The notes beneath the pieces are model-generated. The model had not been told where the DNA came from and did not search any database. It saw only the letters and a program-made list of their open reading frames with translations. The position numbers were made by a program, and so were the translations under genes. Shown here piece by piece: positions 17,134 to 47,326 of a stretch of 64,000 bases of DNA (position 1 is its first letter; every line of letters starts with the position of its first letter). The stretch spans positions 1 through 64,000 of the forward strand of contig JAFWSI010000071.1 of assembly GCA_017519415.1 (NCBI GenBank), written 5' to 3'. Source of the DNA: Ruminococcus sp. Lineage in GTDB: Bacteria > Bacillota > Clostridia > Oscillospirales > Ruminococcaceae.

Positions 17134-17595
17134 TCAGTCAGCGTGTTTCATTATTGCTTTCAGCAGACCGAGAAATGCGGAATATATGAAGGTGCGGACT
17201 GCAATCAGTGCCTGTCCGCCCATGAACACGTATTTGACATAGCTGTAGAAGTACTCTCCCGTGCCGCCCTTGTTCTTCTGTACAAGTCCGTCCATGTACG
17301 GCTCTACCGTCGTATTTCCGAAGGTGACGAAATCCACAAAAAGGGCAAGGAGCAGGGCTATGGTGAAGACAAGATTGAGATTTGCACTGTCGAGTCCCGC
17401 AAGTCCCGAAAAGGGGTGGATATATCTTGTGAAAAGAGATACCGAAATGATACACAGTAGGGTGCACAGGGTCATGCGTATGAAAGGAGCGGGAGCTCCC
17501 GATCTTGCAGGGCTTATGAAGCCGATATACAGCATGAGCAGGGCAAAGAGAAGGACTGTGAGCCCGAGGCTCAGGTAACCTATCGTCCTTTTCAT
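17134..17595 (-). CDS. Small hypothetical membrane protein behind a T-box
   Basis: 153 aa with about four hydrophobic segments (GYLSLGLTVLLFALLMLYIG; MTLCTLLCIISVSLF; LVFTIALLLALFVDFV; ALIAVRTFIYSAFLGLL). Start ATG 17595 has GGGAG upstream; the longer frame would run into the T-box terminator. It resembles no transporter family I know. Being first behind a T-box leader, it should rise when the cognate tRNA is uncharged. Confidence 0.65.
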   Translation of the reverse strand: MKRTIGYLSLGLTVLLFALLMLYIGFISPARSGAPAPFIRMTLCTLLCIISVSLFTRYIHPFSGLAGLDSANLNLVFTIALLLALFVDFVTFGNTTVEPYMDGLVQKNKGGTGEYFYSYVKYVFMGGQALIAVRTFIYSAFLGLLKAIMKHAD

Positions 17596-17615: not shown

Positions 17616-17853
17616 TAAATAAAGCCCCCGGACAGCATATGCCGTCCGGGGGCGAAGCATTTCGCGGTACCACCCCGGTTTACTGAGCCTTGCTCAGCCT
17701 CGTTGAGCTGTAACGGGCACACCCGTCCGCACCTACTTGCGTTCAATGCGGCAACTCCCGGATGTAGCTTCCTCTGCACCGTCATTCCCTCGCACCTCAC
17801 GGGAACTCTCTGTATCGGGCTCTGCACAGGCTTTATCCGTTCACAGTTTTTGC
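17616..17853 (-). promoter_or_regulatory. T-box riboswitch leader, probable tyrosine specificity
   Basis: The T-box core (minus strand GGGGTGGTACCGCG, 17664-17678 on plus) is followed by a perfect terminator stem GCCCCCGGAC/GTCCGGGGGC (17624-17653) and a T-rich stretch. The upstream part has a stem I-like AGAGAG...GTGAGGTGCGA...GGGAA arrangement. The specifier region reads GAAGCTACATCC; TAC (Tyr) placed before ATCC fits the usual spacing best, and GCT (Ala) is an alternative. The tyrS gene at the end of the downstream run supports Tyr. Uncharged tRNA binding would favour antitermination. Confidence 0.9.
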
Positions 17854-39124: not shown

Positions 39125-41221
39125 TCAGCTTTCGTATACGGAAAATCTCCAGATACGTACTGTTGGATAATTTCTGTATTCGCTGTTGATATACTGTCTG
39201 AGCAGATCAACGTCGTTGCTTGTGATCCTGCCGTCAAAGTCAAGGTCTCCTATAGCGATTATTCTGTCAGCTGCTGATTTGTTGACATAATTACTGAGGG
39301 CGTTCACATCTGATGAAGTGAAGTATCCGTCGCCGTTCAGGTCGCCGAGATTGCGGTTGTCCATATATGCCATGCCGGCATGCTTGTTGAAGCCTCCGAA
39401 TCCGCCTGATGCCCATTCATATTTATTATGGCCGTCATTAAGGAACTGGTCGTCAGAACAGAGGAAGTTGTCATATCTTTGATTCGGATCTGCGCCGTTG
39501 TGATAGTCGCTGTCGTCCCATGTTATATCCGCATGATACCATTTATCGTTCAGCTTAAGAAGATTCCATGCGTGGCCCTTTATGTCGTCCTCAAGTCCGT
39601 ATCTTGCATCAAATATGTAAAAGCTTTCAAAGCCTGCCTTTTGGAGCAGAATGTTGAAGCATCTTGCATAGCCGTCGCAGACAGTGTAATTAAGCCCGTT
39701 TTTGCCTTTGTGGAGAAATACAGAGGCGTCAACATGATTCTTTTTATTGTCCATATCATCAAAGTCGTAGTCTGCGGTGTCAATTATCCATCTGCGGAGA
39801 CGAATTATCTTTTCAATATCTGACATGGATGAATTTATATTGCTGCGTACAACATAATCAGCCATCTTGTCAACATAATCCTTCATGAAATAATAATCCG
39901 CATACTCTTCAAAGCTTTCCTCCATGTGAGAACGTATCCTGCTGCTGAACTGAGGAGCACTGTTGTAGTAAGGTGTTGTAACGAGCTCGGTATTGTTGAG
40001 ATTGTGGACCTTGGTGGTGGTCAGGAGAGTTTTGTACTCATTGAGGAAAACTTCCGGAGCCTTGCTGTATTCCGATGAGGGTATTGTAAGATATTCAAGG
40101 TTGTCAAGGCCTTTGAAATTGCCTTTGTTCCTGTTGTTGGGAACAAAGCTCATGAGCCTCAGCTCTCTGAGATTTGGGTTGTTGAATATGGCTGTATCGG
40201 AAATGTCTGTTGCATATGTAGTGAAAGAATAGTCTTTCTTGTCAGAAGGGTAGCAGATAAGAGAGGTGCCCTGGCGGTTGTAGAGGACTCCATCCACCGA
40301 CTTGTAGTAAGCGTTGGAATAATCAACATTGAATGTTTGCAGACCGCTTGTTGAGATAAAAGCTGTTTTATTTATTTTCCAGACATTTTTGCCGATATAT
40401 AACCGTTCGGGCAGTGTTGCGCTTCCGAATGCTTCGGCTCCTATCTCTTTTACGGAGTCGGGAAGATTTAAGCTGGTAAACTGGCATGCCTGGAAGCAGC
40501 CTTCGGGAATACTGGTAACTGTGTTGGGCAGGTTTATGGAAGTAATACCGCATGATGAGAAGGTCCATCTGGAGAGATATACCTTTGTATCCGAGCCTTC
40601 AAATTTTACGGTTTTAAGGTTGTAAAGAAGGAAGAAGAGATATTCTCCGAGTGAAAGCGTCTTTACGCTGCTGCCGAAGCTTACATAGCTCAGCTTCATG
40701 CAGCGGTTGAATACAGAACCCTGAAGGTAAATAGTAGCGCAGTTGCCGTAAAAGTTCTGGATACCCGAATTCTTGAATGCGTCCGGCATTATATTTACAT
40801 TCTTAGCCTGTTCGTTAATTGTGAAAGTGACCAGATTCTCGGTATTGGCAAAGGCCTCCTGTTCGATCATCATGCTGCTGTTGACAGTAACTGAGGTTAC
40901 ATTCGTGTATCGGAAGGCACCTGATTCTATCTTGGTTATCGGATATGAAGTTCTTCCGTCGTAGACAGTTGCACCGATGTTTACATTGGTGATATTCTGA
41001 TCCGCGGACGTAATAACAGCATAACGGCTGCCAGAGTAGTCCTTGTAGACCTTGTAGGTGATCGAGCCTGACTTGAACTGTTTAATATAGGTGTCTGCTG
41101 CTTCTGCGGTTATGGGGGTGGGGGAAAGTGGGAGCTTTCCTGCGTTTGGTGCGAGGGTTGCAGCTGATGCTGCGCAGAGCGTCAGTGCAAGTGCAATGGT
41201 TTTTTTGATACTACTTCTCAT
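39125..41221 (-). CDS. LRR-transglutaminase-dockerin protein, paralogue B (divergent)
   Basis: 698 aa. The signal peptide matches the family (IKKTIALALTLCAASAATLA), but the middle is divergent: LRR units are irregular up to ~390 and include a partly Lys/Tyr/Asn-rich stretch. The transglutaminase triad is Cys in NYTVCDGYARCF, His in KGHAWN and Asp in YHADITWDD. The dockerin has GDLNGDGYFTSSDVNAL and GDLDFDGRITSNDVDLL and a 14-residue tail. A family promoter lies at 41279. No terminator is clear before paralogue A; a small TGCAGGCA/TGCCTGCA hairpin lies between them. Confidence 0.9.
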   Translation of the reverse strand: MRSSIKKTIALALTLCAASAATLAPNAGKLPLSPTPITAEAADTYIKQFKSGSITYKVYKDYSGSRYAVITSADQNITNVNIGATVYDGRTSYPITKIESGAFRYTNVTSVTVNSSMMIEQEAFANTENLVTFTINEQAKNVNIMPDAFKNSGIQNFYGNCATIYLQGSVFNRCMKLSYVSFGSSVKTLSLGEYLFFLLYNLKTVKFEGSDTKVYLSRWTFSSCGITSINLPNTVTSIPEGCFQACQFTSLNLPDSVKEIGAEAFGSATLPERLYIGKNVWKINKTAFISTSGLQTFNVDYSNAYYKSVDGVLYNRQGTSLICYPSDKKDYSFTTYATDISDTAIFNNPNLRELRLMSFVPNNRNKGNFKGLDNLEYLTIPSSEYSKAPEVFLNEYKTLLTTTKVHNLNNTELVTTPYYNSAPQFSSRIRSHMEESFEEYADYYFMKDYVDKMADYVVRSNINSSMSDIEKIIRLRRWIIDTADYDFDDMDNKKNHVDASVFLHKGKNGLNYTVCDGYARCFNILLQKAGFESFYIFDARYGLEDDIKGHAWNLLKLNDKWYHADITWDDSDYHNGADPNQRYDNFLCSDDQFLNDGHNKYEWASGGFGGFNKHAGMAYMDNRNLGDLNGDGYFTSSDVNALSNYVNKSAADRIIAIGDLDFDGRITSNDVDLLRQYINSEYRNYPTVRIWRFSVYES

Positions 41222-41443: not shown

Positions 41444-43603
41444 TTATTTATTGTTGAGTATCTTCTGTTTGAGAAGCGAAAGATCTGTTGCGTTGAGCTT
41501 CCCGTCGAAGTTCATATCAGCGAAGATATGATTGAATGAATTGGCAGGATTCCTGCCGGTGTTGAGGTAAGACTGGAGCCACTGGACATCGGTTTTGTCG
41601 AGTTTACCGTCAACGTTTACATCGCCCATAGGTGTAGTGCAGGGCATATCTTTATATTCATATATGTATCTGTTTGACTTGCGTTCAATTTGGTTTTTAT
41701 CATGCGCATCTGTATCGTCCATTTTATCCATCTCGGAATCTGAAACCATAAACCAGTTGTAAACAGAATTATTGCCGCCATCGTCCCAGTATGAATCGAT
41801 ATTGAACAACTTTCCTTCAGCCTTGATAACGTTCCATGCGTGTGTCTTGCTGAGAACTATCTCTGCGGAAATACCTGCCTTTGTAAGGAGGAGGTTGTAG
41901 CCCTTTGCAAAGCCCTCGCATACGCCGACACCGTTCATGAGAACAGAGGATTCGAGGTGGTATTCGGGACGGCCTGCCAAAGCGTTGGGATAATCCTGAT
42001 TTTTGTTTTTCCTTTCCCAGTCAACATAAGGATTGCAGCCGTTGGCGCACATCCAGTTTTCAAGCTCGCGGGCGATCTGAACATAATTATAATTCGGATA
42101 TTTGCTCTTGATCTGGTTTACTACAGCCTGAGCCTTCTTATCTACATAGTCCTGGATAAAGCCGATGTCATCTGTCTTGCTGAAGTACTTCTTTACAAAG
42201 AGCTCCTTGTTAAGATATACATTGTTGCCTGAAGTGTATACTATTGTTGTACCGTTTATCTTTTTAAGATTAAGGCAGTCAGCAAATGCCATTCCGTCAA
42301 TTGTGTAGTTATTGCTTTCCTTTACGCCTTTGATGTCACTGAGTGACGAACAGTTGCGGAATGCGCCGTTTCCGATCGTCTGGAGACGCTCGGGGAAGGT
42401 CACAGTCTTGAGCGAGGTACAGTTCGCGAATGCTGATGCATCGATAGTCTGTATCCTGCTGGGAAGAACTATGCTGCTGAGCTTCTTGCAGTTTGAGAAT
42501 GTGTACTTAGGTATGACTGCGATATAGTTGGGAAGCTGAACCGATGTAAGGTTTGTACAGTCTGAAAATACGCTTTCGCCGAAGTTAGCGATAGATGTTG
42601 GCAGAACGATCGAGGAAAGTCCTGAACAGCCCAGGAATGCACCGTTGCCGAGGGTATTGAGAGCTGTCGGCATAACGACCTTGGTGATCTTGGTATTATA
42701 CGCGAAGGTATAAGGAAGTATCTTGTTTATGTATGATGGGATAGTTACGGTGCCGCTTGCGCTTGAGGCGTCAAGGATGTAACCGTTTTTAATAACCATT
42801 CCGTTTGTCTTTGGCTGATTCTTGATCCACTTTGTATCTTTGAATACATCTGAGCCGAATTCGGTCACAGAAGAAGGAAGGGATACACTTGAAAGATTTG
42901 TACACTGTGAAAATGCATTGGAAGCGATCGATGTGACACTTGAAGGAATGGTTACCGATGTCAGTGAAGAACAGCCGTAAGCAAAGCTGTCGCCGAGCTT
43001 CTTGACAGATGAGGGGATTTTGATGCTTTTGAGTGATGAACAGCCGCAGAATAAACCTTCTTTATACTCGGTAAGAAGGTTTGTTGTGATGTTAACTGTT
43101 CTGAGCTGTGAGCAGCGGGTGAACACATAGCTGTCCAGTATCTTGACCTTACTGGGAATGTTGATGCTGGTGATAGCTGTGCCCTCGAAAGCGCGGTTCC
43201 TGATACCTGCCATAGTTGAAGGAACGGAAACATATGAAAGGCTCGAGCAGTTCATGAATGCACGGTTGCCTATTGAAGTATAGCCTTCGGGGATAGTGAC
43301 CGATCTGATGTTGCCGTTGCGGAAAAAAGCTTCGTCGTCAACACCTGTGACCTTGCATACTGCTCCGTTTATGGTTACGGAAGTAGGAAGGGTAACAGAT
43401 GTCTTGCTTCCTATATAGGAAGTGAGGGTCGCCGCATTGGTCGAACGGCGTGTGAAAGTGAAGTCACCTGATTTTACGGCTGCTTCTGCAACGATAGGTG
43501 TGGGGGAAAGAGTGAACTTTCCTGCATCGGGTGCAATGGTACCTGCTGTGATAGCGCAGAGTGTCAGAGCAAATGCGATGGTCTTTTTGATGCCTGTTTT
43601 CAT
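41444..43603 (-). CDS. LRR-transglutaminase-dockerin protein, paralogue C
   Basis: 719 aa. Signal peptide MKTGIKKTIAFALTLCAITA to ~42; about twelve LRR_5 repeats (~50-430); transglutaminase-like domain with Cys in GVGVCEGFAKGYN, His in KTHAWN and Asp in FNIDSYWDD; dockerin with GDVNVDGKLDKTDVQWL and ADMNFDGKLNATDLSLLKQ. RBS AAAGGAGA. It is the intact relative of the remnant at 31072 (same first six codons and leader). Closest to paralogues D and E. Likely exported and held on the scaffoldin. Confidence 0.92.
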   Translation of the reverse strand: MKTGIKKTIAFALTLCAITAGTIAPDAGKFTLSPTPIVAEAAVKSGDFTFTRRSTNAATLTSYIGSKTSVTLPTSVTINGAVCKVTGVDDEAFFRNGNIRSVTIPEGYTSIGNRAFMNCSSLSYVSVPSTMAGIRNRAFEGTAITSINIPSKVKILDSYVFTRCSQLRTVNITTNLLTEYKEGLFCGCSSLKSIKIPSSVKKLGDSFAYGCSSLTSVTIPSSVTSIASNAFSQCTNLSSVSLPSSVTEFGSDVFKDTKWIKNQPKTNGMVIKNGYILDASSASGTVTIPSYINKILPYTFAYNTKITKVVMPTALNTLGNGAFLGCSGLSSIVLPTSIANFGESVFSDCTNLTSVQLPNYIAVIPKYTFSNCKKLSSIVLPSRIQTIDASAFANCTSLKTVTFPERLQTIGNGAFRNCSSLSDIKGVKESNNYTIDGMAFADCLNLKKINGTTIVYTSGNNVYLNKELFVKKYFSKTDDIGFIQDYVDKKAQAVVNQIKSKYPNYNYVQIARELENWMCANGCNPYVDWERKNKNQDYPNALAGRPEYHLESSVLMNGVGVCEGFAKGYNLLLTKAGISAEIVLSKTHAWNVIKAEGKLFNIDSYWDDGGNNSVYNWFMVSDSEMDKMDDTDAHDKNQIERKSNRYIYEYKDMPCTTPMGDVNVDGKLDKTDVQWLQSYLNTGRNPANSFNHIFADMNFDGKLNATDLSLLKQKILNNK

Positions 43604-43777: not shown

Positions 43778-44920
43778 TTATTCGGTTTGAGATGAAGCTG
43801 AGTATGCAACGCCTTCGATAATCACATCATCGGGTGCTACGGAAACTATGTCATTTTCAGCGTTGTAGTAGTATACGGACTGGGTATCCATGTACCATAC
43901 CATTCCGTAAGCACAGCCGAGCTCAAGGTCCTTATTCAGTGATGCAGCGAGCTCGTTCCATGTCATTCCTTCCACATAGCTGAAACTTGTGCCGTTGACG
44001 GTAACAGTTTTTGTCGCAGCATATTCTGTAATGTACTTATAATACTCGTAAACAGTCTTTGCTGCGTCAACTGCCTTTGCATTCTCGCTGCTGATAGCGC
44101 GTGCACAGTATGACAGAGCGCTAAATGTATAATCGGCACCGCCGTAGGTAATTGTCTGTGCCTTGCCTAACTGAGCGGGATTGATCGACTTTGCTTCAAA
44201 GCAGTATCCCTCGTAGTTGCCCTTTACTGCGCTTACATTTGCATCAGTCTTTGAATCTGCGGTAAGACCGTCGATGTAGATCCTTGCAGCAAGCTTTGAA
44301 TCAAGAACGAGAGAAATCTTTGTATCTGTTGCAAATGAAGGATCGCAGTATGAAAGTCCGTCATAGGATTCCTCCATGAAGGAAATAGCGGTTGAAGTGT
44401 TGTCGAAATAATTATCGGAAGCAATGCCGAGGTTTTTGAGGGATTTTACGGCTTTTTCTGTCTTTTCGTCAAACTCGTCGTCAGCGTCTGCAATAACGTA
44501 ATCGCAGTATGTGTTTACATTGTAGGAATAAGAATTGCCCTTATCCTCGATAGCGACAACTGCATTGCTGCCGTCAAGGAACTGGATGGTTACGTTCTCG
44601 TCGAGCTGTGTAGCGTACAGCGGATAGGTGAAAACATAGTAATCGGTACCGCTGATGGTTGCGCTCTCAAAAGCTTCCTTTGCGACCGACGGGTCTGCAT
44701 TGGGACCGTCAAGGCTTACGCTTGCTACGTTTGCTGCGTCAACAGAAGCCTTTGTTGCATAGAACCTGAGTGAGATCGAGTCGTCGATAGCAACGTTTAC
44801 AGAGCTTAATGTGACTTTTTCTCCTGCTGCATTTGCTGCGAGAGCTGTTGGGAGTGCGCCTGCGACAAGTGCCAGTGCAGATACTGCCGACACTGCCATT
44901 TTCATGCCTTTGTTTTTCAT
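43778..44920 (-). CDS. Secreted protein of unknown function behind an attenuator-like leader
   Basis: 380 aa. Signal peptide MKMAVSAVSALALVAGALPT with cleavage near ANAAG (~33). The mature protein is acidic and Ala/Ser/Tyr-rich, with beta-rich N-terminal (LSSVNVAIDDSISLRFYATK) and helical central parts (KTVYEYYKYITEYAATK). No dockerin, anchor or catalytic motif is recognised. Start ATG 44920 has AGGAGG. There is no promoter directly upstream: a T-run terminator ends ~30 bp before the ATG, and a 34-codon ORF lies before that, so expression depends on read-through. Confidence 0.75.
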   Translation of the reverse strand: MKNKGMKMAVSAVSALALVAGALPTALAANAAGEKVTLSSVNVAIDDSISLRFYATKASVDAANVASVSLDGPNADPSVAKEAFESATISGTDYYVFTYPLYATQLDENVTIQFLDGSNAVVAIEDKGNSYSYNVNTYCDYVIADADDEFDEKTEKAVKSLKNLGIASDNYFDNTSTAISFMEESYDGLSYCDPSFATDTKISLVLDSKLAARIYIDGLTADSKTDANVSAVKGNYEGYCFEAKSINPAQLGKAQTITYGGADYTFSALSYCARAISSENAKAVDAAKTVYEYYKYITEYAATKTVTVNGTSFSYVEGMTWNELAASLNKDLELGCAYGMVWYMDTQSVYYYNAENDIVSVAPDDVIIEGVAYSASSQTE

Positions 44921-44951
44921 CAAAAAATCCTCCTAAATTATAATACAAAAA

Positions 44952-44991
44952 AGCGTATCTCACAGGATAATGTTATTCTGAGAAATACGCT
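44952..44991 (-). terminator. Attenuator-like terminator just before a start codon
   Basis: Minus-strand AGCGTAT...ATACGCT stem extended by TCTCA/TGAGA-type pairing, followed by TTTTTTG. The 5' arm covers the last codons of the small ORF; its stop codon lies in the loop. The RBS of the 43778 gene follows within ~15 bp. Confidence 0.75.
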
Positions 44992-45077
44992 GTTTTACCG
45001 TATGATAACACCGACAGGGCGCAGTTATTCTTTTTGCAGCAGATATTTGTATAGACTAAAACCCTCACCGCTTCCAT
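44973..45077 (-). CDS. 34-residue upstream ORF, candidate leader peptide
   Basis: ATG at 45077 with GGGGG seven bases before it; TAA at 44973. The peptide starts MEAVRVLVYT, has a Cys cluster NICCKKNNC, and ends GKTAYFSE. It is too short for routine ORF calling. The stop lies in the loop of the terminator at 44952-44991, so a ribosome near the end of this ORF would cover the 5' arm and prevent the hairpin. This is the layout of a leader-peptide attenuator for the secreted protein gene downstream. It could alternatively be a small product in its own right. Homologues unknown to me. Confidence 0.55.
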   Translation of the reverse strand: MEAVRVLVYTNICCKKNNCALSVLSYGKTAYFSE

Positions 45078-45110
45078 ATTAATACCCCCTTCGGTTATGA
45101 AACCAAACAT

Positions 45111-45139
45111 ATTTTACCATATGCGAAAGGATTTGTCAA
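45111..45139 (-). promoter_or_regulatory. Promoter of the leader ORF and the 43778 gene
   Basis: TTGACA, 17-bp spacer, TAAAAT, starting a leader of about 185 nt. Confidence 0.75.
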
Positions 45140-45216: not shown

Positions 45217-45248
45217 GAGAAAAAGCTCCATGTACGGAGCTTTTCTCT
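45217..45248 (-). terminator. Terminator of paralogue D
   Basis: GAGAAAAAGCTCC / GGAGCTTTTCTC, loop ATGTAC; GCTCC/GGAGC family. Confidence 0.85.
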
Positions 45249-45268: not shown

Positions 45269-47326
45269 TCAACCTCTGCTGTACTTGCTCCAGATGCTCT
45301 GAGCGTCCTTGGAGTCTATAACGCCGTCACAGTTTATGTCGGCACAGGTCTTGTTGAAGGTTCCGCTGACCTGACCGTTGTTCTTATAATAGTTTGTGAC
45401 TGCTTGAACATCGGCATTGTCCACCTTTTTGTCGAGGTTAACATCACCGAGAGGATATTCACATCTGATTATGCCGTTTCCTAAATCTCCGCTGTCGGTC
45501 GTATTTCTTACGATGCCTGTGGATGAGGTCTTTGTATGATAACCGCTGTTATCCATCTTCAGCATTTCGTTATCGGAAACGAGGAACCAAGTGCGGACAG
45601 CCGAGCTTCCGTTATCGTCCCAGTATGAGTCGACATTGAACCATACGCCGTCAAGCTTTACAACGTTCCAGGCGTGGCCGTCTCCGCTGTATGCATATGA
45701 TTCTATGCCTGCTTTTCTGAGAAGTCTGTTGTATCCGAAGGAATAGCCAACGCATACTCCCTTTCCGTTGAGAAGAACGGAGGATTCTCTTCTGTACTGA
45801 TTGATATTGTTTTCGTCCGCAGGAGATGAACCGTTTGCTGCCATCCAGTTATGAAGTGCAAGAGCCATCTGAGCCTGTGTGTAATTGGGGTGCTGGTTTC
45901 TTATCTGGTCAACAACAGCGCTGGTCTTCATATCTACATAATCCTGTATGATACCGTTGCTGTCACAGTTGTTGAAATACTTCTTTACAAAGCTTTCCAT
46001 ATATACGGAAACGTTATAGCCCGAACGTGTCACAACAGTTCTGCCGTTGAGCTTTCTGAGATTCCAGCAGTTGTAGAATGCCTGATCGCTCAGATCATAA
46101 TTCTTACTGGCATTTATGCCTGTTACATTGTTGAGAGAGGTGCAGCGTGAAAAAGCGCCGTATCCGACAGTCTCGAGGTGCTCGGGGAAGTTGATGGTTG
46201 TGAGATTGGGACAGTCACTGAATGCACCGCTTCCTATCTTGGTTATCCTGTTTGTAAGGGTTATCTTATTGAGATTTGAGCAGTTAGCGAAGCAGCTTTC
46301 GGGGATCTCGGAGATGTAATTTGAAAGCTGGACTTCCTTGAGGTTTGCACAGCTGGAAAATGCATATGGACCCAATACTTCAACCGATGAAGGCATAGAT
46401 ACCAGTGTTATTGCATTGTTGTCCTCAAAAAGGCCTCTGGGGATAACACGGATACCGGAAGGTATGCTTACGGAGCCCTTTGCGCTTGATGCGTCAAGTA
46501 TATTGCCGTTCTTTATAACGAGGCCGTTTGTCTTGGACTGTTTCTTGAGCCAGGGTGTATTCTTGAAAGCGCATCCGCCAATGGTTCTGGTACCGGAAGG
46601 AAGATTCAGGCTTGAAAGCGAGGTGCAGTTTTCAAATGCATATTCACCGATAGTTGTAAGTCCGTTGGGGAGAGTGATGGAAGTCAGGGACTTACAGTCG
46701 GAAGCAAAGTAGTCTCCCAGCTCCTTGATAGTTGAAGGGATATTAACACTTGTAAGCGAGGTGCAGCCGCCGAACAGACCGGTAGGAAGCTTTGTGAGGA
46801 TAGTTGTGTTTATTCTTACGGTCTTGAGGTTTCTGCAGGCATTGAACGCATAATTGCCGAGGATCTTTACGTCAGCGGGAATTGTAAAGCTTGAAATAGC
46901 TGTTCCCGAAAATGCATGATCACGGATAGCGCAGATCGTTGAAGGTATCGAGACGCTTGACAGATTTGAGCAGTCCATGAATGCGTCTGTTCCGATGCTT
47001 GTGTAACCGTAAGGGATAGTTACGGATTTTATATTGGTGTTTCTGAAAAATGCACCGGTATCGATACCGGTAACCTTGCACTTGGCTCCGTTGATAGTTA
47101 CCTCTGTAGGAAGTGTTACACTGGTCTTGGTTCCTACATACTGCGTAAGTGTGGCAGCTGCAACTGAACGGCGTGTAAAGGTAAAGTCACCTATCTTTGT
47201 TGCCGCTTCGGCAGTGATAGGTGTGGGGGAAAGTATGAACTTTCCTGCATTGGGTGCAATGGTACCTGCTGAAATTGCGCAGAGTGTCAGAGCAAATGCG
47301 ATTGTTCTTTTGAGGTTTGATTTCAT
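45269..47326 (-). CDS. LRR-transglutaminase-dockerin protein, paralogue D
   Basis: 685 aa. Signal peptide MKSNLKRTIAFALTLCAISA; about twelve LRR_5 repeats; transglutaminase-like domain with Cys in GKGVCVGYSFGYN, His in GDGHAWN and Asp in FNVDSYWDD; dockerin GDVNLDKKVDNADVQAV and ADINCDGVIDSKDAQSIW. RBS AAAGGAGA and family promoter at 47378. The sequence after the signal peptide (TKIGDFTFTRRSVAAATLTQY) is almost the same as in paralogues C and E, which suggests recent duplication or gene conversion. Confidence 0.92.
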   Translation of the reverse strand: MKSNLKRTIAFALTLCAISAGTIAPNAGKFILSPTPITAEAATKIGDFTFTRRSVAAATLTQYVGTKTSVTLPTEVTINGAKCKVTGIDTGAFFRNTNIKSVTIPYGYTSIGTDAFMDCSNLSSVSIPSTICAIRDHAFSGTAISSFTIPADVKILGNYAFNACRNLKTVRINTTILTKLPTGLFGGCTSLTSVNIPSTIKELGDYFASDCKSLTSITLPNGLTTIGEYAFENCTSLSSLNLPSGTRTIGGCAFKNTPWLKKQSKTNGLVIKNGNILDASSAKGSVSIPSGIRVIPRGLFEDNNAITLVSMPSSVEVLGPYAFSSCANLKEVQLSNYISEIPESCFANCSNLNKITLTNRITKIGSGAFSDCPNLTTINFPEHLETVGYGAFSRCTSLNNVTGINASKNYDLSDQAFYNCWNLRKLNGRTVVTRSGYNVSVYMESFVKKYFNNCDSNGIIQDYVDMKTSAVVDQIRNQHPNYTQAQMALALHNWMAANGSSPADENNINQYRRESSVLLNGKGVCVGYSFGYNRLLRKAGIESYAYSGDGHAWNVVKLDGVWFNVDSYWDDNGSSAVRTWFLVSDNEMLKMDNSGYHTKTSSTGIVRNTTDSGDLGNGIIRCEYPLGDVNLDKKVDNADVQAVTNYYKNNGQVSGTFNKTCADINCDGVIDSKDAQSIWSKYSRG

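Follow-up and report, generated by a model that had tools for sequence, protein, structure and literature searches.

The window, the whole stretch of 64,000 nucleotides analysed here, carries on its minus strand a gene for a 380-residue predicted secreted protein, preceded by a promoter, a 34-codon leader ORF with its own SD, a terminator, and the SD and start codon of the gene itself. This layout had been correctly described in a first-pass annotation of the DNA, as had the fact that the 5' arm of the hairpin is made of the last codons of the leader ORF. The stop codon of that ORF lies in the loop. The parts are located as follows:

45220..45245, minus strand: terminator of the preceding LRR-protein gene (promoter/terminator scan)
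45111..45139, minus strand: promoter, TTGACA-17-TAAAAT (promoter scan)
45085..45090, minus strand: SD of the leader ORF, AGGGGG (sequence; relatives have a G-rich SD before the ATG)
44973..45077, minus strand: leader ORF, 34 codons plus TAA, ATG at 45077 (sequence; frame conserved in relatives)
45017..45027, minus strand: core A, TAACTGCGCCC, whose TAA is a stop in a frame that the window copy does not use
44952..44991, minus strand: terminator hairpin (folding)
44973..44975, minus strand: leader stop codon TAA, on the 5' side of the terminator loop (sequence, folding)
44947..44952, minus strand: terminator T-run, TTTTTT (sequence)
44929..44934, minus strand: SD of the secreted-protein gene, AGGAGG (sequence)
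43778..44920, minus strand: secreted-protein gene, 380 aa, ATG at 44920 (N terminus signal-peptide-like by eye)

The promoter has its -35 hexamer TTGACA at 45139-45134 and its -10 hexamer TAAAAT at 45116-45111 (minus strand), 17 nt apart; it matches the consensus at 11 of 12 positions in the promoter scan, with a TG ahead of the -10, and by eye similar sites lie upstream of many relatives. The terminator of the LRR-protein gene sets the leader apart as a transcript of its own. The earlier statement that no other promoter lies between hairpin and gene agrees with the scan, which lists none, and needs qualifying for a bare TATAAT at 44942-44937 (minus strand), which by eye has no -35 hexamer and sits almost on the gene SD. 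Two foldings give the hairpin (44991-44952) -17.7 and -17.3 kcal/mol; the terminator emerges from folding and is absent from the list of the scan of the 2-kb region. The same scan returns five promoter-like and three terminator-like sites, compared with 3.0 ± 1.9 and 1.9 ± 1.5 in shuffled sequence, both near chance, and the 180-nt window leader folds at -45.9 kcal/mol (z = -2.27), with 5 of 200 shuffles equally stable. What raises the window element above chance is, as judged from the sequences, its conservation in relatives.

A six-frame search of 60 relatives with the leader peptide, MEAVRVLVYTNICCKKNNCALSVLSYGKTAYFSE, as the first-pass annotation had proposed, yields mostly chance-level matches, with the exception of two places that match in both DNA and layout: a paralogue in the same genome (about C2:190616-190621) and one in genome G024. 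A DNA search finds a homologous element in the same genome with an E value of 2.1e-10. Covariance models built on 12 sequences (R1) and on 54 (R2) match in 41 of 125 genus genomes (E ≤ 0.1) and in 38 of 125 (E ≤ 0.01, with up to 10 rows per genome), respectively, tallies that include some antisense or terminator-only rows, which were removed before members were counted. The genome of the window, about 75% complete, contains two convincing copies, and its remaining matches are on the antisense strand or unrelated. We collected 74 distinct elements, mostly from one genus, probably Ruminococcus. From 85 matches, 70 were carried on and 15 set aside (13 antisense to another match, two duplicate loci); six others, which were partial, decayed or limited to the terminator (L057, L126, L119, L116, L111 and L125), were then removed. 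Core A was found in 57 of the remaining 64, with L102 placed by hand, and is absent from L099, L100, L107, L113, L114, L122 and L123. Of the 27 matches (26 stretches) from a pattern search for the core, 17 joined the collection and the other 10 were truncated or duplicates; addition of L134 and removal of one duplicate brings the collection to 74. Members identical in sequence across both sets, L074 and L180, point to Ruminococcus as the genus of the window.

Across the order, R2 matches in 2 of 295 genomes at E ≤ 0.001, one of them the genome of the window, and an AAGC-tract pattern occurs in none of 391 genomes of the class. The 26 named stretches with the core pattern include 21 titled Ruminococcus, among them R. 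flavefaciens YRD2003, and five titled only Oscillospiraceae or Clostridia bacterium; many of the named records come from rumen or gut samples. Matches in a genus from another family of the same order (18 genomes) are otherwise weak. Here L224:1-145 (E = 0.46), at a contig end, shows a tract of about eleven AAGC units followed by a core-like TAAC and then a terminator, and in L134, from the same genus, the leader ORF reads through the terminator.

Members share a fixed order of promoter, SD (often AAAAGGGG), ATG, variable stretch, core A, spacer, terminator, SD and gene. Core A starts 30-40 nt before the hairpin; its T, A and A are each present in 92% and the C residues at positions 8 and 9 in 96% and 92%. 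Start and hairpin were both located by script in 63 of the 74 members, and in 59 of 63 a stop codon lies on the 5' side of the terminator loop (TAA 46, TAG 9, TGA 4); we dropped this loop stop as independent proof of coding, as 91% would be expected from the column frequencies by themselves. Where the stop lies in the hairpin, leaders are 30-37 codons long. Some leaders read core A as N-x-A-L and others as T-A-P, so that it is conserved as nucleotides; the conservation extends beyond its TAA, for which a reading-frame model gives no account.

Conservation of nucleotides across two reading frames is what would be expected of a structured regulatory RNA, in which a ligand or protein recognises the core together with the terminator, or the core base-pairs with the SD and ATG of the leader and controls its translation, the ORF being secondary. 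In the minimum-free-energy fold of the window copy, core A is indeed paired to the SD region of the leader, and comparable duplexes are available to many relatives; native SD-core duplexes are only slightly stabler than swapped ones (mean -15.9 vs -14.7 kcal/mol; median rank fraction 0.39), a difference that speaks for neither side. We nonetheless judge this reading unlikely: Rfam 15 at the gathering score matches the element neither in the window nor in any of 12 member loci, and the reading accounts for neither the conserved frame nor the repeats described below. The sole Rfam match in the window lies elsewhere, a T-box leader (RF00230, 111 bits) at 17645-17853 (minus strand), just upstream of a predicted 153-aa ORF at 17136-17595.

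The consensus of RNA polymerase pause sites extends beyond a pyrimidine at -1 and a G at +1. In the core, position -1 is always a pyrimidine and position +1 is G in 92% of the 74 members; a pause-related Y-1 G+1 motif is described in passages of PMC5902446, and those of PMC6336406 give no pause-site sequence. From these column frequencies we would guess that the core and the terminator loop may be pause sites that let the ribosome catch up with RNA polymerase.

We find that the reading frame of the leader is conserved well beyond chance. In the frame test (n = 62) the ATG was chosen by its SD alone, and the same positions shifted by one or two nucleotides served as the control. Among members without repeats, 25 of 26 have a frame open as far as the hairpin (5 and 5 of 26 when shifted); the corresponding figures are 11 of 14 (0 and 1) for those with a short (AT)n tract and 17 of 22 (4 and 3) for those with longer repeats. 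Since members are related, these counts are not independent; when the non-repeat members are grouped into greedy clusters, 25.2 of 28 clusters at 80% identity reach the hairpin vs 4.5 and 4.5 when shifted, and 13.8 of 16 at 65% identity vs 2.9 and 3.4. The early stops in the (AT)n group are in L060, L061 and L102, and the ATG of L102 was probably wrongly picked by the script. In about half of the 12 members outside the test (L065, L081, L084, L095, L118 and L124), no start preceded by a G-rich SD gives a frame as long as this; an ATG frame extends at least to the hairpin in L062, L072, L075 and L085 and, from an ATG with a weak SD, in L090, and in L071 a TTG start leads to a stop at core A.

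The three frames were also counted from core A itself. Frame c stops at the core TAA in 52 of 63 members, while stops more than 12 nt before the hairpin occur in 0 of 63 in frame a and 8 of 63 in frame b. These 8 early stops compare with 34 ± 4.3 when the spacers are shuffled (minimum 20 in 1000 runs), a deficit that is indicative, as related sequences are not independent. An ordinary terminator with a chance ORF ahead of it is hardly credible to us: intrinsic terminators are common, and the covariance models also match antisense strands and bare hairpins, but such a reading is contradicted by the conserved frame, the recurring order from promoter, SD and ORF through core and hairpin to the SD and gene, and the confinement of repeats to the leader.

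The peptide itself is not kept. A synonymous-site check, also proposed in the first-pass annotation, finds 18 silent and 78 other changes between close leaders (10 of 12 pairs countable, pairs overlapping, and codons with several changes counted as other), mostly not silent, and leader-peptide conservation finds no support as a feature of the family. Two further explanations depend on what the ribosome meets in the leader. The earlier annotation had taken cysteine supply as a possible signal, with stalling at CC and C codons under cysteine limitation altering the hairpin, and the window peptide does have three Cys codons, two of them adjacent. A cysteine sensor would need conserved Cys codons; among the 53 hairpin-reaching leaders Cys is absent in 11, single in 26, and present as CC in two, so that the cysteine reading fails for the family. 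Furthermore, the Cys of NCAL comes from the nucleotide-conserved core, which other members read as TAP, and the downstream products found are not those of sulfur-metabolism genes. We therefore reject cysteine sensing on the family data, in which neither Cys codons nor the peptide are retained, and consider it very improbable. A redox or drug stall at the CC of the window may concern this copy alone, and nothing in the relatives points there; what they do suggest is control by reading frame, by way of repeat tracts.

The second such explanation is a sensor of translation stress or drugs, in which translation of the leader matters and the input is ribosome speed or stalling in place of a heritable frame. 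Published leader-peptide attenuators are reported to respond to drugs, and in the window copy, which has no repeats, variation in output would have to come from translation; however, no stalling sequence is conserved, and the changes between close leaders show the excess of non-silent substitutions given above. We regard this reading as quite improbable.

The stretch between the leader ATG and core A is where many members carry tandem repeats. Of the 74 members, 24 have three or more tandem copies of a 4-6-nt unit within the 62-nt stretch that ends at core A; among control windows from elsewhere in these loci the tally is 2 of 4243. The units include AAGC, GACA, ACAGC, CATA, GAACA, ATCA, an 8-mer and short AT tracts. 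Seven units checked are stop-free in all forward frames, a property also common among random 4-mers (about 80%) and 5-mers (76%). Repeat length was compared with one genome per species, and the near-identical pair comes from two genomes: the aligned pieces of L077 and L094 are 99.4% and 98.7% identical, and their leaders differ by 35 nt, equal to 7 x ACAGC, and by two G in the SD run. One of the two is predicted to stop in the loop, its partner adjacent to the hairpin. Of the 22 repeat members, 5 are called with a core-A stop, vs 1 of 40 others (Fisher p = 0.018); in the single exception, L112, another ATG with a GGGG SD reaches the loop stop, and with this corrected p is 0.004. The window leader has no 4-6-nt tandem tract, and the window as a whole has no tract of at least four such units. 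Two related genes, L171 and L185 (72% identity over 775 nt), have different leader repeats (GACA vs AAGC), as though tracts were replaced over time.

By eye, many repeat-bearing members (L164, L167, L169, L177, L185 and others) also have GGGGTTGACA..ATG..TAnnnT over the leader start, that is, a second TTGACA-17-TAnnnT site, a candidate promoter, which overlaps the SD and ATG. With transcription starting mainly from this second site, the leader ATG would not be transcribed, which would count against the leader reading in those members. The window leader has no such second site.

Our favoured interpretation, held with reasonable confidence, is that the element is a translation-dependent transcription attenuator of a reading-frame type. 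It draws on what is present in the sequence, namely the parts, the conservation of frame, the three-frame stop pattern, the repeat tracts and one difference in repeat number. Transcription would start near 45104, as we infer from the promoter, and a ribosome would translate the leader ORF, probably into the terminator. Where an open frame leads into the hairpin, with a stop in, just before or beyond it, the ribosome would occupy the 5' arm, no terminator would form, and the secreted-protein gene would be transcribed (ON). Should translation end at the core-A TAA, which lies 30-40 nt ahead of the hairpin, or before that point, the terminator would form and the gene would be OFF. Because the frame into the hairpin is conserved beyond chance, the first-pass proposal that ribosome position decides read-through is the likely mechanism. 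In relatives, slippage of the repeats between the leader ATG and core A in living populations would move the frame and give phase variation, and tracts that can change in length probably switch surface-protein genes on and off in this way. The window copy, with no repeat tract and a frame that ends in the loop, is predicted to be fixed in the ON frame and to be ON whenever its leader is translated; its own-genome paralogue (about C2:190616-190621), which stops early and carries a short (AT)n tract, is predicted to be OFF.

This arrangement resembles one demonstrated experimentally by Danne et al. (2014; PMC3894217) for the pil1 locus of Streptococcus gallolyticus, in which GCAGA repeats in a leader ORF set the position at which the ribosome stops. 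There, a stop well before the terminator gives low expression, and one next to, in or beyond it high expression; low isolates of pil1 stop at least 28 nt before the hairpin, and pil3 is reported to behave in the same way. As in pil1 and pil3, a promoter, leader ORF and terminator here precede a gene for what would be a surface protein, a location that for this family rests on signal-peptide-like N termini judged by eye, and relatives of the window copy carry stop-free short tandem repeats. As in pil1 also, the predicted OFF stop lies well before the hairpin (here 30-40 nt) and the predicted ON stop next to, in or beyond it. The likeness is one of parts and geometry. Unlike pil1, the present family occurs in about a third of the genus genomes with a shared core A that would supply the OFF stop, uses several repeat units and includes many copies without repeats, that of the window among them.

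Other known systems share some of these traits. Amino-acid attenuators of the trp type likewise combine a leader ORF with a terminator and let ribosome position decide read-through (PMC3894217), whereas the present leaders have no conserved codon for one amino acid and no conserved peptide, and the genes downstream are not biosynthetic. Drug-inducible leader-peptide attenuators such as that of mef/mel (PMC4335068) also place a leader ORF before a terminator; here, in contrast, no stalling peptide is conserved and secreted-protein genes rather than resistance genes follow. In contingency loci with intragenic repeats, short tandem repeats shift the frame and affect surface proteins (PMC3894217), whereas here the repeats lie in a separate leader ORF and would act through termination, leaving the protein unchanged. 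Our literature search, which had few subscription papers in scope, found pil1/pil3 as the sole described system of this logic and no example from Ruminococcus.

The 380-aa window protein has no match in Pfam or NCBIfam; its homologues occur in 21 of 125 genus genomes at E ≤ 1e-15, and R2 marks the element at at least 6 of 30 fetched homologue loci, the window among them, a lower bound because the flanks of the fetched loci are limited. The leader ORF of the close homologue L112/L190 likewise reaches the hairpin. L188 (51% identity, internal stops) has no R2 match, and by eye a degraded leader is left there; L189, a third close homologue, has no leader match. Across the family, most downstream products begin by eye with a signal-peptide-like stretch, frequently of the types MKxTWKKxAA... 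and MKGxFWRKALAAALAL.... A Pfam search of 10 downstream proteins gives matches for five and none for the other five; the matches are Listeria-Bacteroides and InlB repeats with DUF6273, BspA LRR, Ig-like, histidine kinase and DUF6935.

Several further observations concern the neighbourhood of these genes. In the window, three related secreted proteins (39125-41221, 41444-43603 and 45269-47326, minus strand) flank the leader-controlled gene; they have BspA-type LRRs and dockerin domains, and two have a transglutaminase-like domain. At L118:546-1829 and L124:544-1827, from two genomes, the element precedes a gene for a membrane histidine kinase (Pfam His_kinase in L118) and not one for a secreted protein, and a good leader start was found in neither. 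Small ORFs of the type MKEKYxAPEMEIVEFDxEDVITTSN lie near leader-controlled genes in L027, L082, L094, L112, L183, L191, L208 and L209; in L089 the motif is inside a short secreted protein itself, and there is none in the window.

A more far-reaching form of the frame-dependent attenuator, to which we give even weight for and against, is a three-frame "counting" family spread through a commensal genus. The core would provide the OFF stop and the other two frames would be open into the hairpin, with slippage of mutually unrelated repeats placed before the core (units of 4, 5 or 8 nt, and perhaps short AT tracts) producing stochastic ON/OFF expression of many secreted proteins; copies without repeats would be frozen switches, and the core and loop possibly pause sites. 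The pil1 logic would then exist here as a conserved, often multi-copy family ahead of secreted proteins, some with adhesin-like domains. If this is true, the ON/OFF state of the secreted-protein genes of a strain would be predictable from its sequence, and cell-to-cell variation of the Ruminococcus surface would become directly testable.
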